This document shows positions 5,654 through 12,529 of a DNA stretch of 64,000 bases, in pieces. Origin of the DNA: Christensenella timonensis (GTDB lineage: Bacteria; Bacillota; Clostridia; Christensenellales; Christensenellaceae). Numbering within the stretch: the stretch's first letter is position 1; every line of letters begins with the position of its first letter. The stretch lies in assembly GCF_900087015.1 (NCBI RefSeq), contig NZ_FLKP01000002.1, forward strand, positions 1,674,001-1,738,000, written 5' to 3'. The notes below the pieces were generated by a model, which was not told the DNA's origin, did not search any database, and was given only the letters and a program-made list of their open reading frames with translations. Made by a program: the position numbers and the translations under genes.

Positions 5654-6397
5654 TCATTCATCCTGCAACCTTAACTTATCTGCCAGCGTTGCAATAAATT
5701 CCCCGTTGGTCGGTTTTCCTTTTTCCGAGCTTACCGTATATCCAAAATAAGCGTTGAAGGCATCCGGGTCGCCCCTTGTCGCGGCCGTTTCGATCGCATG
5801 CCTGATGTTGCGTTCCACGCAGGAGCTTTGCGTGCCATGCTTTTCGGCAAGCACCTGGTAAATATTTTTATTGATCGCCTGCGTTTTGCTGAAATCCATA
5901 CACACGATATAAAGCGCGTCGCGCAGCAGCTTGTATCCCTGCACATTGGCCGGAATCCCCAGCCGTTTTAGCGATACGGATATCCTGCTGTATAAAAGCT
6001 GGTTGACGCCCACTTCCGTCTGCCGGTTCATATCCCTAAAGTCCGCGGCCTCCAATATCCGCGACACAAAAACATCCCGGATATATGGCTTCACAAAAAG
6101 ATAATTGGCATTCAGCTCAAACGCCTTTTTGATGATCAGCTCCTGATTCATCGACGTCAGCACGATTTTGATGATATCGGATTCGAGCATATGCTCCATC
6201 AACGCAAAACCATCATATCCTGGCATAATCGCTTCTACCAGTACCAGATCCGGGTTGTACTGGTCGTACAGCGAGATCGCGTTGCTCCCGTCCGTGGTAG
6301 ACTGAAAGGAATCAGATACGTCCGCAAGCATTTCTTTGATCTGCATCACATACTTTTTACTTTGTTCTACTATCAAGGTGCGCTTGAATCTCGCCAA
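5654..6397 (-). CDS. spo0A: Spo0A response regulator with a degenerate receiver domain
   Basis: 247 residues. The C-terminal effector domain (about 135-247) is clearly Spo0A: SLKRLGIPANVQGYKLLRDA, CVERNIRHAIETAATRG and FGYTVSSEKGKPTNGEFIATLADKLRL. The N-terminal receiver keeps the fold and the conserved Lys (FVKPY), but the phosphoacceptor position in DLVLVEAIMPGYDG is Glu55 instead of Asp. The acidic pair that binds Mg2+ is Glu11-Gln12 instead of Asp-Asp. In the family, phosphorylation of that Asp drives dimerisation and binding at 0A boxes. Here phosphorylation looks impossible and Glu may mimic it. The gene lies 13 nt after recN, as in other Clostridia where spo0A sits near argR-recN. Confidence 0.9.
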   Translation of the reverse strand: MARFKRTLIVEQSKKYVMQIKEMLADVSDSFQSTTDGSNAISLYDQYNPDLVLVEAIMPGYDGFALMEHMLESDIIKIVLTSMNQELIIKKAFELNANYLFVKPYIRDVFVSRILEAADFRDMNRQTEVGVNQLLYSRISVSLKRLGIPANVQGYKLLRDALYIVCMDFSKTQAINKNIYQVLAEKHGTQSSCVERNIRHAIETAATRGDPDAFNAYFGYTVSSEKGKPTNGEFIATLADKLRLQDE

Positions 6398-6409: not shown

Positions 6410-8128
6410 TCACTTTCCGGTTCCGGGAAGCCCGGCTTTAAAACGCGCTGCATTCTGTATCAGGTCCTGCGCATACTTTTCAGAGCTTTCCGATTCAATA
6501 CCGCCGGACAGGCGCGAGACTTCTGCGACCTTACGTTCTTTCGTGAGCCGCACAACATCCGTATTGGTCACGCCATCCTCCGTATGCTTGCTGATCAGGT
6601 AGTTTTCATCTCCCATCGCCGCGATCTGCGGCAGGTGCGAAACGCAGATCACCTGTCTTTCCTGCGCGATCGCCGCCATTTTTTCCGCTACAGTCAATGC
6701 CATTTTCCCACTGATCCCGGTATCGATTTCATCAAATATCATGGTCGATATATGATCCATACCGGCTGACAGGTTTTTAAAGGCCAGCATGATGCGCGAT
6801 ATTTCCCCGCCAGATGCCGTTTTACTCAAAGGCTTTAAGGGTTCGCCCACATTCGTAGAGATCATGAATTCCATATCGTCGATCCCGTTGCGTGTATATA
6901 CGGCTTCATCCATGCCTTTGAGCGGCTCAAAACGCGCCTGAAACTGCGCGTCCGGCATCCCCAGGTCATGAAGCTCAGCGAGCAGCTTTTCCCCCAGGCG
7001 CCCTGCCGATTCTTTGCGCGCCTCCGATAAGGCGATATAACGCCCATACAATTCTTTTTTCAGTCCTTCGATCTGCCCCGCCAGCTCCGTCGCCACTTTT
7101 TCTGCATTCTGCAGCTTATATAAGCGGTCTTCCGCCTCCTGCAGGTAAGCAAGTATTTCCTCTTCATCCGCTCCATATTTCCGCTTCAGCGAATGGATCA
7201 GGTCAAGGCGCTGTTCGATTTCTTCCTGCCGCTGCTCGTCAAAGACGACATCGTCCGCCAAACTGCGCATATCATGCGCGCATTCCTCAACAGTATACAC
7301 GCTTTCCTGCAATTTATCCGCGAGTACACGGTATCGCTCGTCATAGTGCGTGATTTCCGATAAGCGGGCCACGACCTCCTGCAGCATGGAAAGTACGCTT
7401 CCCCCCTCGTCGCTCCCCGCATAAAGCGCCTCATAACCCGAGGACAGCGATTGCGCGATAGTCTGCGCATGCATTATTTTTTCACGTTCTTCCCTGAGCG
7501 CATCTTCTTCCCCTGCCACAAGCCCTGCCGCTTCAATCTCCTTGATTTGGAAAGAGAGTAAATCGACGCTCTGCGCCCGGTCACGCTCGCCGCCGCCCAC
7601 TGCCTCAAGCTGCCTTTGGGCGTCCTTTAAGCGGTCGTACAATCCGTTGATCGCCTGCTTGATCGGTAAAATCGTTTCCTTTCCAAAGCTATCGACAAAA
7701 TCCAAATGGCTTTTTGCGTACAAAAGCGATTGATGCTGGTGCTGTCCATGCAGGTCGATGATATGGTCAGTAAGCTCCTTTAAGGCCGCGAGGCTCACCA
7801 CCACACCGTTGATCCGGCAGACATTCTTGCCCGCCGCCGACAAGTCGCGCGACAAAATCAATTCATCCTCAGCGTCCAACTCATTTTTTTCAAAAAAATC
7901 GGCAAGGGCTGCGGAGTCGATATGCAAAACAGCTTCCACACGCGCCTTTTCGCGCCCATGGCGGATCAGCTCCTTATCTGCACGCTCGCCCAAAACAAGG
8001 TTCATGGAATCCACAACGATGGACTTCCCCGCCCCGGTTTCCCCGGAAAGCACATTCAGCCCTTTTCCAAATTCAATATGGAGCTCATCAATCAATGCGA
8101 TGTTTTTGATTGTCAGACTGCAAATCAT
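6410..8128 (-). CDS. recN: DNA repair ATPase RecN
   Basis: 572 residues. SMC-like architecture: N-terminal Walker A GETGAGKSIVVDS at about residues 30-42, a long coiled-coil middle, and a C-terminal signature (KTASGGEISRIMLAFK) with Walker B (TMIFDEIDTGISG). It acts at double-strand breaks with RecA, which is encoded 3 kb away. The N-terminus MICSLTIKNIALIDELHIEFGKG fixes the start at 8128. The upstream extension to 8203 overlaps argR and is not conserved in type. The spacing of 17 nt from argR gives an argR-recN operon typical of Firmicutes. Confidence 0.95.
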   Translation of the reverse strand: MICSLTIKNIALIDELHIEFGKGLNVLSGETGAGKSIVVDSMNLVLGERADKELIRHGREKARVEAVLHIDSAALADFFEKNELDAEDELILSRDLSAAGKNVCRINGVVVSLAALKELTDHIIDLHGQHQHQSLLYAKSHLDFVDSFGKETILPIKQAINGLYDRLKDAQRQLEAVGGGERDRAQSVDLLSFQIKEIEAAGLVAGEEDALREEREKIMHAQTIAQSLSSGYEALYAGSDEGGSVLSMLQEVVARLSEITHYDERYRVLADKLQESVYTVEECAHDMRSLADDVVFDEQRQEEIEQRLDLIHSLKRKYGADEEEILAYLQEAEDRLYKLQNAEKVATELAGQIEGLKKELYGRYIALSEARKESAGRLGEKLLAELHDLGMPDAQFQARFEPLKGMDEAVYTRNGIDDMEFMISTNVGEPLKPLSKTASGGEISRIMLAFKNLSAGMDHISTMIFDEIDTGISGKMALTVAEKMAAIAQERQVICVSHLPQIAAMGDENYLISKHTEDGVTNTDVVRLTKERKVAEVSRLSGGIESESSEKYAQDLIQNAARFKAGLPGTGK

Positions 8129-8145: not shown

Positions 8146-8598
8146 TTACTTGTTGATGATCTTCATCAGTTTTCCAGCAATATCTTCCGAGGCCTGCTGG
8201 CAATCCGTCGCCACAAAAATCGTATTGTCACCCGCAAGGGTTCCCATAACGCCATTGAAATGCAGGCTGTCTATCACTTCTGCCGCCGCGTTCGCGCTTC
8301 CCGAAAGCGTTTTGATGACCAGCAGGTTGGATGCAAAATCAATCGATAAGACCGTGTCCTTAAAAATGCGCATCAAAATGTCCATATCGTTTGTCTTATG
8401 CTTTTTATTGACTGCATATTTATACGCGCCGGAGCTCGCCTGCACCTTGATCAGCTGCAGCTCCTTGATATCCCGGGAGATCGTAGCCTGCGTTACCTTG
8501 AACCCGGATTCATTCAGCCGCGTCACCAGCTCTTCCTGTGTCTCGATCTCATCATTTTCGATCAAGTCCAGTATCTTATTTTGCCGTTTTGATTTCAT
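8146..8598 (-). CDS. argR: Arginine repressor
   Basis: 150 residues, full length. The N-terminal winged helix includes TQEELVTRLNESGFKVTQATISRDIKELQLIKV. The C-terminal oligomerisation and arginine-binding domain includes GTLAGDNTIFVATD, in which the Asp residues contact arginine. As a hexamer it represses arginine biosynthesis genes. No arginine gene lies in the window. The location upstream of recN is conserved in Firmicutes. Confidence 0.95.
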   Translation of the reverse strand: MKSKRQNKILDLIENDEIETQEELVTRLNESGFKVTQATISRDIKELQLIKVQASSGAYKYAVNKKHKTNDMDILMRIFKDTVLSIDFASNLLVIKTLSGSANAAAEVIDSLHFNGVMGTLAGDNTIFVATDCQQASEDIAGKLMKIINK

Positions 8599-8608
8599 AT
8601 CGATACTC

Positions 8609-9448
8609 CTACTTTTTTGTGATGCTCCATTGAGCCAGCTTATCCTTTAGCTGCGGGAAAAAGTGGTTCTTATGGAAACGTATAAACTGCGTCGCCGACT
8701 GCGAACGGCAGATCGTCACTTCCTCCTGCTCGGAAATCCGCACAATATCCTGCCCATCCGCCGTGAGCGTTACATCCTCTTCCCCGTCAAAAGGCGCCAC
8801 CTTTATGATATCGCTGAATTTTGCGATGATGCTGCGCGCATACAACGAATGCGGACAGATCGGCGTCACCAGCACGCAATTCACATTCGGCGCTACGATC
8901 GGCCCGCCCGCCGAAAGGGAGTAGGCCGTAGAGCCTGTAGGCGTGGATACGATCAGCCCGTCGCCATTGTAAAGCTCCGCGAGCGAATCGTTGATGTACA
9001 AGTCAAGCTTTACCATATGGGTACGGTTTTCTTTGGAAATAATGAAATCATTGAGCGCCAGCAAAGGCTTTGCAACGTTCGATACGTGCGCCTCCAGCAT
9101 CATGCGCTCATCGACCAGGTATTCCTCATGCAATACCCTTTCAATCGCTTCATCCAGGTCATCCATGCCGATCTCGCTCATAAAACCAAGGTGTCCAATA
9201 TTGATCCCCAGCAGCTTGATGCCATATCCCACATATTTACGCGCCGCGCGCAAAATGGTGCCGTCCCCGCCCAAAACGAGGAGTACGTCCGCATGCCTTG
9301 CGTCTTCAAACGTCGATATATCCAGCATTTGCGCCGTATCATCATCATGACAAACCGTACATTCATGCCTTTTGAGCGCGTCAATGACTATACGGGTTGC
9401 CTGAAGGCCCGGGTCCTTTTTCTCATTTGTATAGACGCCGAATTTCAT
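8609..9448 (-). CDS. nadK: NAD kinase
   Basis: 279 residues. GGDGTILRAAR (about residue 60) is the ATP/NAD kinase motif, and NGDGLIVSTPTGSTAYSLSAGGPIV is the second signature. It phosphorylates NAD+ to NADP+. It is first in the run nadK-argR-recN-spo0A-punA and has a plausible promoter of its own in the 93-nt gap downstream of tlyA. Confidence 0.95.
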   Translation of the reverse strand: MKFGVYTNEKKDPGLQATRIVIDALKRHECTVCHDDDTAQMLDISTFEDARHADVLLVLGGDGTILRAARKYVGYGIKLLGINIGHLGFMSEIGMDDLDEAIERVLHEEYLVDERMMLEAHVSNVAKPLLALNDFIISKENRTHMVKLDLYINDSLAELYNGDGLIVSTPTGSTAYSLSAGGPIVAPNVNCVLVTPICPHSLYARSIIAKFSDIIKVAPFDGEEDVTLTADGQDIVRISEQEEVTICRSQSATQFIRFHKNHFFPQLKDKLAQWSITKK

Positions 9449-9541: not shown

Positions 9542-10333
9542 CTACAAACGCTCGTGGGAGAGCGCTACAATGCGCTGCACGTCCTCCCTGCCCATCCGGC
9601 AAAGTCCTGCTTGCCTCTCAAACAGGGCAAGGTATTCGATATTTCCGTTTGGCCCTTTGATGGGGGAATACGTTAAATTGCGGATCGCCAACCCGTTTTC
9701 CGCTGCCTTGCCGATCACACTGCAAATGACGTCCTCATGGACGGCCGCGTCCCGCACCACGCCCTTTTTCCCAACATGTTCTTTGCCCGCCTCGAATTGC
9801 GGTTTGATCAGCGCAACCGCCTGCATATCAGGCGCTCCTACACGTATGACAGCAGGAAAAATCAGGCCCAGTGAAATAAAGGAAACGTCTATGCTCGCAA
9901 AATCGACCGGCCTGTCCTGCGCTTCCAAATAACGAGCGTTGGTACGCTCCATCAGTTTTACACGGCCATCGTTCCTCAAAGCCCAGTCGAACTGGCCATA
10001 CCCGACGTCCACTGCATATACATAGGCCGCCCCGCTCTTTAGCATACAGTCCGTAAAGCCTCCCGTAGAGGCCCCAATGTCCATACAGACCTTTCCCTCC
10101 AGGTCAAGCTGGAATTCCTTCATCGCTTTTTCAAGCTTCAGGCCGCCCCTGCTGACATACGGACAATGATCCTGCCCGACCGCGATCTTTACATCCTCTT
10201 CAAAGGTATCGGAAGGCGCTTTCACAAGCTTTCCCTCTACCGTCACCTCGCCTGCGATCACCAGAGCTTTCGCTTTTTCACGGCTTTTGGCAAGGCCCTT
10301 TTCCGCCAGCAGGACATCAATTCTCTTTTTCAT
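9542..10333 (-). CDS. tlyA: TlyA-family rRNA 2'-O-methyltransferase
   Basis: 263 residues. An N-terminal S4 domain (MKKRIDVLLAEKGLAKSREKAKALVIAG) is followed by an FtsJ-type SAM methyltransferase domain with MDIGASTGGFTDCMLKSGA as the SAM-binding loop. In mycobacteria TlyA methylates 16S and 23S rRNA riboses; older annotations call the family haemolysin A. It starts 17 nt inside the end of oapA, so the two are tightly coupled. A TlyA-type gene next to oapA is also part of published OLE RNA loci, which supports the call on the upstream RNA. Confidence 0.92.
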   Translation of the reverse strand: MKKRIDVLLAEKGLAKSREKAKALVIAGEVTVEGKLVKAPSDTFEEDVKIAVGQDHCPYVSRGGLKLEKAMKEFQLDLEGKVCMDIGASTGGFTDCMLKSGAAYVYAVDVGYGQFDWALRNDGRVKLMERTNARYLEAQDRPVDFASIDVSFISLGLIFPAVIRVGAPDMQAVALIKPQFEAGKEHVGKKGVVRDAAVHEDVICSVIGKAAENGLAIRNLTYSPIKGPNGNIEYLALFERQAGLCRMGREDVQRIVALSHERL

Positions 10334-10868
10334 TGTTTTTGCCCTTCTTAAAACTGAAAAAATGCGCGATCGAACCGATCGTCATGACAATATCCTTGTT
10401 CTTTTTCAGGGCGATCCCCTTGCCCCACGCTTTTCCCGCAACGGTAAGCGCTGCGATCAGTGCGGATACGGCAATGGAAATCACCATATCCGGGAATGGG
10501 AACTGAAAGACGATCGCCTTCAAGGCGATGGCGGCGCCTGCAGCGCCGCTGACGATCCCGCAGATATCGCCGATCACGTCATTGCAAAAATTAGACACTA
10601 CATCTGCATTTTTCAGCATTTTGAGGGCATAATGCGCCTTTGTGTTTTTCCGTGCGGACATCGCGATAAACGGCGATTGATCACAGCTTGCAAAGGCCAC
10701 GCCAACGATATCAAAGAGGATACCGACCGCGATCAGCGCAATGACAACGCCTACGGATGCAAGCAGCGATAAGTTGGAAATAAAATATTCCGCAGCGACG
10801 GATACGCCTGCGGAAATAAACAATGTAATAAAAAATATTTTGATCGCCCAGTGCTTGATGACCTTCAT
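10317..10868 (-). CDS. oapA: OLE-associated membrane protein OapA
   Basis: 183 residues with about four hydrophobic segments (roughly 8-28, 33-59, 94-122, 126-146), a basic loop between the second and third (SARKNTKAHYALK) and a Lys-rich tail. Asp97 and Asp101 form an i/i+4 pair in NDVIGD at the start of the third segment. GILFDIVGVAFASCDQSPFIAMSA is the other strongly patterned stretch. Published work shows OapA binds OLE RNA and holds it at the membrane; it is tied to stress tolerance and Mg2+ physiology. The start at 10868 has GGAG 5 nt upstream, and a longer frame to 11033 would run into the RNA gene. The call rests on size, topology and position directly after the RNA and before tlyA. 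Confidence 0.82.
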   Translation of the reverse strand: MKVIKHWAIKIFFITLFISAGVSVAAEYFISNLSLLASVGVVIALIAVGILFDIVGVAFASCDQSPFIAMSARKNTKAHYALKMLKNADVVSNFCNDVIGDICGIVSGAAGAAIALKAIVFQFPFPDMVISIAVSALIAALTVAGKAWGKGIALKKNKDIVMTIGSIAHFFSFKKGKNNEKEN

Positions 10869-10888
10869 CGTTACTCCAATATAAAAAT

Positions 10889-11474
10889 ATGGTGGTGACA
10901 ATAAGGGTAGACCTTGCAGTATTTGGTCCGGTAGGATTTCCCCACAGTCTGCTCCCCGTCGCCGAAAGGAGTGGTTTCCCCTTAGAGCCTGCGGTGCAGT
11001 GTTACCTGCTGCACGACCGGATTGCCTGTTCAAACCACACTATAATCCCCTTATTGCCTGAAATACAGTCTAGGAGCTTTCCTCGACAGCACAAATCCGA
11101 TTTCTAGTCTCTTTTGCCAGCATGGTTTTTTACAGTCATGGTCCCTGAACATCCGTACGCAATGTTTCAGTGATCGTCTTCCTGCTTTTCCACCATGCCA
11201 ACGCAAGACAGGCTACTCTGTACACAGCGTAGTACCGCATAACAGGTTCCACCCTGCCCAGTAATGAAAAGGTCTCACCACCCAAGCAGGTCTCCGCGAA
11301 AGCTGGGTCAACGCCCATATGCCCTTATGGATCGCCCTTCTTTCTTAACTCCCAGCACCAGCCCCCGACGGGGCGTCAGCGGCCAGCACCAGAAACTTCA
11401 TCGATGTGCCCTTTAACGGATTTTTAGGCCCGCCTTCGAAATCGGCAGTACCGACTAGAATACTGCACCACCAT
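10889..11474 (-). ncRNA. ole: OLE RNA (ornate large extremophilic RNA)
   Basis: No plausible protein fits the 617-nt gap between recA and oapA. The minus strand reads as a structured RNA of about 586 nt. Its ends pair perfectly over 9 bp: AUGGUGGUG (11474-11466) with CACCACCAU (10897-10889). Further local helices are visible, for example GCAGUA with UACUGC near the 5' end and GCCCC with GGGGC around 11363-11376. Known OLE RNAs are about 600 nt, lie directly 5' of oapA, and cluster with tlyA, argR and recN; all of that is found here. The RNA starts 12 nt after the recA stop and ends 20 nt before the oapA start, with no terminator, so it is part of a longer transcript. Confidence 0.85.
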
Positions 11475-11485
11475 AAACCAATGGT

Positions 11486-12529
11486 TTACTTTTCCTTCTT
11501 TTCTTCCTCTTCCGTAGGTTCTTCATCCGGCATATCCGCATATTCCCCCAGCTTGTATGCCTTCAATATCTCCTGTTTGATCGTTTCCGCGATTTCCGGG
11601 TTTGCAGCAAGGTACAGCCGCACATTGTCACGCCCCTGGCCGATCTGCTCCCCATTGTAAGAGAACCACGAACCGGATTTGACGATAATCCCCAGCTGCG
11701 TTGCAAGGTTTAAGATACTTGCCGTTTCACTGATCCCCTCGCCGTAATAAATCTCAAATTCAGCCGTCTTGAACGGCGGAGCTACTTTGTTCTTCACGAC
11801 CTTGATGCGGGTACGGTTACCGATCATCTGGTCTCCGACCTTGATCGTCTCGATCCGGCGCACGTCAAGACGCACAGAAGCGTAGAATTTCAGGGCTTTA
11901 CCGCCTGTCGTCGTTTCCGGGCTGCCGAACATCACGCCGATCTTCTCGCGCAGTTGGTTAATGAATACTGCGATCGTGTTGGAACGGTTGATCACGCCCG
12001 CCAGTTTGCGGAGCGCTTGCGACATCAGTCTTGCTTGCGCACCGACATGCGAATCCCCCATCAAGCCTTCGATCTCCGATTTTGGCACCAGTGCCGCAAC
12101 AGAGTCGACGACAATGATATCGATCGCGCCGCTCCTCGTGAGGGCTTCCGTGATCTCCAGCGCTTCCTCTCCCGTGCTGGGCTGGGAGACGTACAGGTTA
12201 TCGATGTCAACGCCGAGGTTCTTTGCATAGACCGGATCGAGCGCGTGCTCCGCGTCGATAAACGCCGCTGCGCCGCCCTGCTTTTGCACTTCAGCGATCA
12301 TATGCAGCGCTACCGTCGTTTTACCGGACGATTCCGGCCCATATATCTCAACGATCCTGCCGCGCGGCACACCGCCGATCCCAAGGGCGATATCAAGCTC
12401 CAGGCACCCTGTCGGAACAACGGATACGTTCATATTTTTCGCGGCATCCCCAAGCTTCATGACCGCGCCTTTCCCAAACTGTTTTTCGATTTGGGCCAGT
12501 GCCACGTCCAATGCTTTATCTTTTTCCAT
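11486..12529 (-). CDS. recA: Recombinase RecA
   Basis: 347 residues. Walker [14 protein letters not shown], loop L1/L2 region [42 protein letters not shown], and a very acidic C-terminal tail ([15 protein letters not shown]). It performs homologous strand exchange and stimulates LexA cleavage. The start MEKDKAL at 12529 has AGGA about 9 nt upstream; the ORF extension to 12559 overlaps pgsA. It follows pgsA by 26 nt, the usual pgsA-recA order, and is followed at once by the OLE RNA. No LexA-type operator was recognised here. Confidence 0.97.

Follow-up and report, generated by a model that had tools for sequence, protein, structure and literature searches.

Genomic context of the ole gene

The gap between recA and oapA in Christensenella timonensis holds an ole gene on the minus strand (Table 1). 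The window, by which we mean the entire 64-kb stretch of DNA analyzed, contains a single Rfam match at gathering scores, and that match is to OLE (RF01071). It extends over 612 nt (10876-11487), scores 437.4 bits (E = 4e-125) against a gathering score of 50 bits, and covers model positions 1 to 616 of 616, i.e., the full length. The host genome carries one copy. The first-pass annotation had recognized an OLE RNA here from the sequence and named a covariance-model search as the check; the significant match across the whole region confirms the identity, and the assignment of the gap as a gene for full-length OLE RNA is essentially settled. The proposed location also holds, and only the extent needs a slight correction, the Rfam match being somewhat wider than the original 10889-11474.

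Table 1. Positions of the ole gene, its structural elements, and neighboring genes in the window
Feature	Position	Strand	Evidence or remark
recN	6410..8128	-	PF02463, 4.2e-16
argR	8146..8598	-	NF001680, 1.8e-56
nadK	8609..9448	-	PF20143, PF01513
tlyA	9542..10333	-	TIGR00478, 3.2e-79
oapA (183-aa membrane protein OapA)	10317..10868	-	Invariant D97-x3-D101; CNNM-like predicted fold
OLE RNA (ole), full-length form	10876..11487	-	Rfam RF01071 match and covariation
P1 3' arm, CACCACCAU	10889..10897	-	Perfect complement of 11466-11474
P13 loop region (UCGGCGACGG), place of published OapB site	10956..10965	-	GG..AC motif conserved
L9.3 loop palindrome CGUACG, self-kissing bridge B3	11154..11159	-	In 6/6 Christensenella species
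L6.1 loop GGGC (consensus UGGC), bridge B2 partner	11321..11324	-	Variant base 11324
L5.1 loop GCCCC (consensus GCCCA), half of bridge B2	11370..11374	-	Variant base 11370
L4 A-rich loop (AAAAA), published dimer bridge B1	11421..11425	-	CUAAAAAUCC nearly invariant among 231 OLE RNAs
P1 5' arm, AUGGUGGUG	11466..11474	-	Perfect complement of 10889-10897
recA, upstream neighbor	11486..12520	-	PF00154, 1.9e-140

The P1 stem starts 12 nt downstream of the recA stop codon and ends about 20 nt upstream of the oapA ATG (10868). The gene order downstream of OLE is oapA, tlyA, nadK, argR, and recN, which agrees with the earlier reading of this locus as a known OLE neighborhood, with a 183-residue membrane protein (OapA) followed by tlyA and with argR and recN nearby. 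Genes for pnp and an M16 peptidase also lie around ole; the literature names PnpA and ArgR as candidate OLE partners and reports a correlation with OLE for MlpA and YmfH, two M16 peptidases. A search for a promoter-like site upstream of OLE found none. The distance from the recA stop to P1 ranges from 7 to 41 nt across all six Christensenella species: three have a spacer of about 40 nt, enough to accommodate a small promoter or a hairpin, and the other three have nearly none.

Two genomes encode an oapA (L072 and L084) with no adjoining OLE; their full OLE sits at a different place in the assembly (L277 and L278), where a second oapA may lie next to it. Such separation of oapA and OLE departs from the tandem arrangement usually seen.

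The RNA is noncoding and its fold is conserved

We found stop codons in all six frames of the OLE region in each of the six Christensenella species, and one-base insertions or deletions distinguish the species from one another. A coding region was thus rejected, in keeping with the original statement that the gap holds no credible protein; a conserved open reading frame in relatives would have spoken for one, and no frame is kept across the genus.

The secondary structure is conserved instead. The perfect 9-bp pairing between the two ends, already noticed in the first-pass annotation, is P1 of OLE; within the genus it is paired in 96% of cells, and three of its pairs show double changes. Over the whole model, 820 of 917 cells (89%) hold standard pairs in the genus, compared with 38 to 44% once the partners have been shifted by one or two positions, and compensatory changes on both sides are seen in 22 of the 154 model pairs. 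A broader set of 231 distinct OLE RNAs gives a similar result, with 87% of cells paired versus 41 to 45% after shifting. The OLE fold in Christensenella is under selection.

Distribution of OLE and comparison with known representatives

OLE is present in all six Christensenella genomes, in 1 of 12 other genomes of the family, in 135 of 297 genomes of the order, and, at the level of the phylum, in 290 of the 398 genomes sampled. As many as 2,822 Bacillota genomes with OLE, gut clades included, were already listed in 2024 (PMC11332333). Given both counts, a mesophilic host is unsurprising, and the suggestion that OLE would be notable in such an organism does not hold: it is common in Clostridia, gut species among them, and the naming of the class after extremophiles is historical. 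One match (locus L191 of genome G444, 31-861) is drawn out to 831 nt, a length that points to an insertion within the RNA or to an assembly gap there.

The Christensenella RNA shares with the RF01071 representatives from H. halodurans, C. acetobutylicum, and C. botulinum its full model length and structure, closure by P1, the A-rich L4 loop, an oapA directly downstream, and the tlyA/nadK/argR/recN neighborhood. It differs in its L5.1/L6.1 loops (GCCCC/GGGC instead of GCCCA/UGGC), in L9.3 (CGUACG instead of GGCC), in lacking a CCUCC mimic in P6, and in its gut host. OLE variants 1 (TANB77) and 2 (RF39) likewise occur in gut Bacillota; however, they lack or shorten P7 to P9 and often come without OapB and OapC, whereas Christensenella has the full-length RNA and both proteins. 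Within the collection of papers searched, none deals with OLE RNA in Christensenella. The object is of a known kind, and what is modestly new is a well-equipped gut genus together with natural evidence on two dimer bridges.

Protein partners of OLE

The D-x3-D motif of OapA (D97 and D101) is invariant and is likely the counterpart of the functional D100/D104 of H. halodurans. The predicted structure (mean pLDDT 79) consists of long helices and resembles the CNNM membrane domain of MtCorB (7m1t; Z 13.6, rmsd 2.5 over 129 residues), with unrelated chains scoring Z 8.4 and below. The sequence scores against CNNM (PF01595), 8.9 bits for OapA and 19.8 bits for a genus relative, fall below the cutoff of 28.4, and the likeness lies in the predicted fold only. 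This fold agrees with the published link between OapA and MpfA: membrane helices and predicted fold are common to OapA and the CNNM/MpfA family, but the 183 residues of OapA are too few to accommodate the CBS and CorC domains found in MpfA. Sequence-only searches found no solved relatives of OapA. A viral occurrence of OapA was considered and rejected, as no relative was found in viral contigs.

The remaining known components are also encoded in the host genome. OapB lies between map and infA (best PDB match 7k9b, OLE-associated protein B; E = 1.6e-6), OapC/YbxF lies between rpoC and rpsL (match to YbxF 4lck; E = 2.4e-11), and a bS21 gene is present. One MpfA-type CNNM gene is present in the host as well, from a family that published work describes as anticorrelated with OLE; within this bacterial family the anticorrelation is uninformative, one CNNM gene being found both with and without OLE. 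The anti-Shine-Dalgarno mimic CCUCC, which belongs to the bS21 site in P6 of H. halodurans OLE, is absent from the OLE RNA in the window, so that its bS21 contact may differ. The mimic does not define the class, since only 27 of the 231 OLE RNAs contain it and 204 do not.

Dimer contact loops

Cryo-EM structures show OLE as a dimer bridged by A-A pairs between the L4 loops, by contacts of L5 and L7 with L6 of the opposite chain, and by a self-kissing L9.3 (PMC12286853, PMC12265935, PMC12412911). The corresponding loops of the OLE RNA in the window fit such a dimer: L4 is kept, L5.1 and L6.1 are complementary, and L9.3 is palindromic.

The variable position of bridge B2 has changed from A-U in the consensus to C-G in the window. 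Where both loops were readable among the 231 RNAs, L5.1/L6.1 carry A/U in 133, A/C in 45, A/A in 25, A/G in 11, and C/G in 14. All 14 RNAs with C in L5.1 thus have G in L6.1, and C occurs in none of the 203 RNAs with another base in L6.1. Conversely, 81 of the 214 RNAs with A in L5.1 lack a U partner; the coupling is clear, but the pair is not a strict one, an A that faces C or A being tolerated in many RNAs. Among the columns tested, the L5.1 base shares the most mutual information with the L6.1 base (0.095, next 0.041).

On a tree built without the two loops, C arose in L5.1 about six times, and every origin falls on a branch that already has G in L6.1 or acquires it. These branches account for 7% of tree length, giving a probability of about 1e-7 for six of six origins; three of the six have weak branch support, and counting only three raises the probability to 3e-4. 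Elsewhere in the family, a relative from a different genus carries A/G, a plausible intermediate between A/U and C/G. The register of the bridge may be either CC(A/C) with (U/G)GG or GCC with GGC plus one. We did not find the L5.1-L6.1 coupling in the main texts consulted, and it may be described in supplements or in the second cryo-EM paper.

At bridge B3, all six species keep CGUACG in L9.3 while the stem beneath has diverged. Palindromes of at least 4 bases occur in 185 of 226 predicted L9.3 loops versus 98 (SD 6.5) after shuffling, the former count being approximate because some nonpalindromic calls are folding misassignments (L005, which holds CGUACG, is one) or short P9 variants. The excess persists when GGCC loops are left out (28 of 69 versus 13, SD 2.8). 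The cores include GUAC, UGCA, and GCGC besides GGCC and AGCU; the main text of the cryo-EM paper names GGCC, GAUC, and AGCU, and the GUAC core of Christensenella is beyond these three.

Interpretation and alternative explanations

OLE ranks among the largest structured RNAs of bacteria for which no biochemical function is known. We consider it highly probable that Christensenella possesses a genuine ole gene, encoding a full-length, structure-conserved RNA ahead of oapA, and that the published role as dimer and scaffold carries over. While identity, structure, and partner genes were observed here, the dimer, membrane location, and stress role would follow by analogy with H. halodurans and two Clostridium OLE structures. 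The RNA would be transcribed with its operon and then processed, would fold into a dimer through L4, L5.1-L6.1, and L9.3, and would be held at the membrane by the CNNM-like OapA. Together with OapA, OapB, and OapC, it could form a scaffold that aids adaptation to stresses such as cold, alcohols, and Mg2+.

The short distance to oapA and the lack of a clear promoter of its own could also be expected of a cis-acting, riboswitch-like leader of oapA. We regard this as very improbable, because the match extends over the entire model of an RNA known to occur in free form, OLE has been described as an abundant RNA of its own that binds OapA, and in the two exceptional genomes the full OLE is not next to the oapA found. 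Still more remote is a decaying, nonfunctional copy: 437 bits is below the score of many other members (up to 583 bits) and some loops depart from the consensus, yet OLE is kept in all six species, stem changes are compensated, and the departing loops are paired or palindromic.

The loop changes fit the proposed dimer, as C-G replaces A-U at the variable B2 position and L9.3 remains self-complementary, and we favor, with some reserve, the view that the roughly six independent compensatory changes at L5.1-L6.1, together with L9.3, reflect selection for OLE dimerization in living cells, Christensenella being a double variant. The same coupling could instead stem from a contact within one chain or from shared ancestry. 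Covariation is unable to separate cis from trans, the pair is loose in the 81 A-bearing RNAs noted above, and half of the origins sit on weakly supported branches. Against this, L5 faces L6 of the partner chain in the published structures, and C arose only on the small share of the tree with G; we therefore judge an intrachain or ancestral origin rather unlikely. In addition to the published L9.3 case, the coupled loop changes allow the cryo-EM dimer to be tested by evolution at a second bridge, and if dimerization is indeed selected, the Christensenella double variant could serve for compatibility tests. With its cultured species and all the genes of the OLE particle, this human-gut genus also provides a mesophilic model.

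Additional observations at neighboring genes

The oapA and tlyA reading frames overlap by 17 nt (10317-10333), which suggests that their translation may be coupled. On the far side of recN, a Spo0A homolog (5654-6397, minus strand; Spo0A_C, 1e-33) has Glu at the position of the phospho-acceptor Asp (PDLVLVEAIMPG). The same Glu is present in all four other Christensenella species read, and it looks like a genus-wide phosphomimetic.
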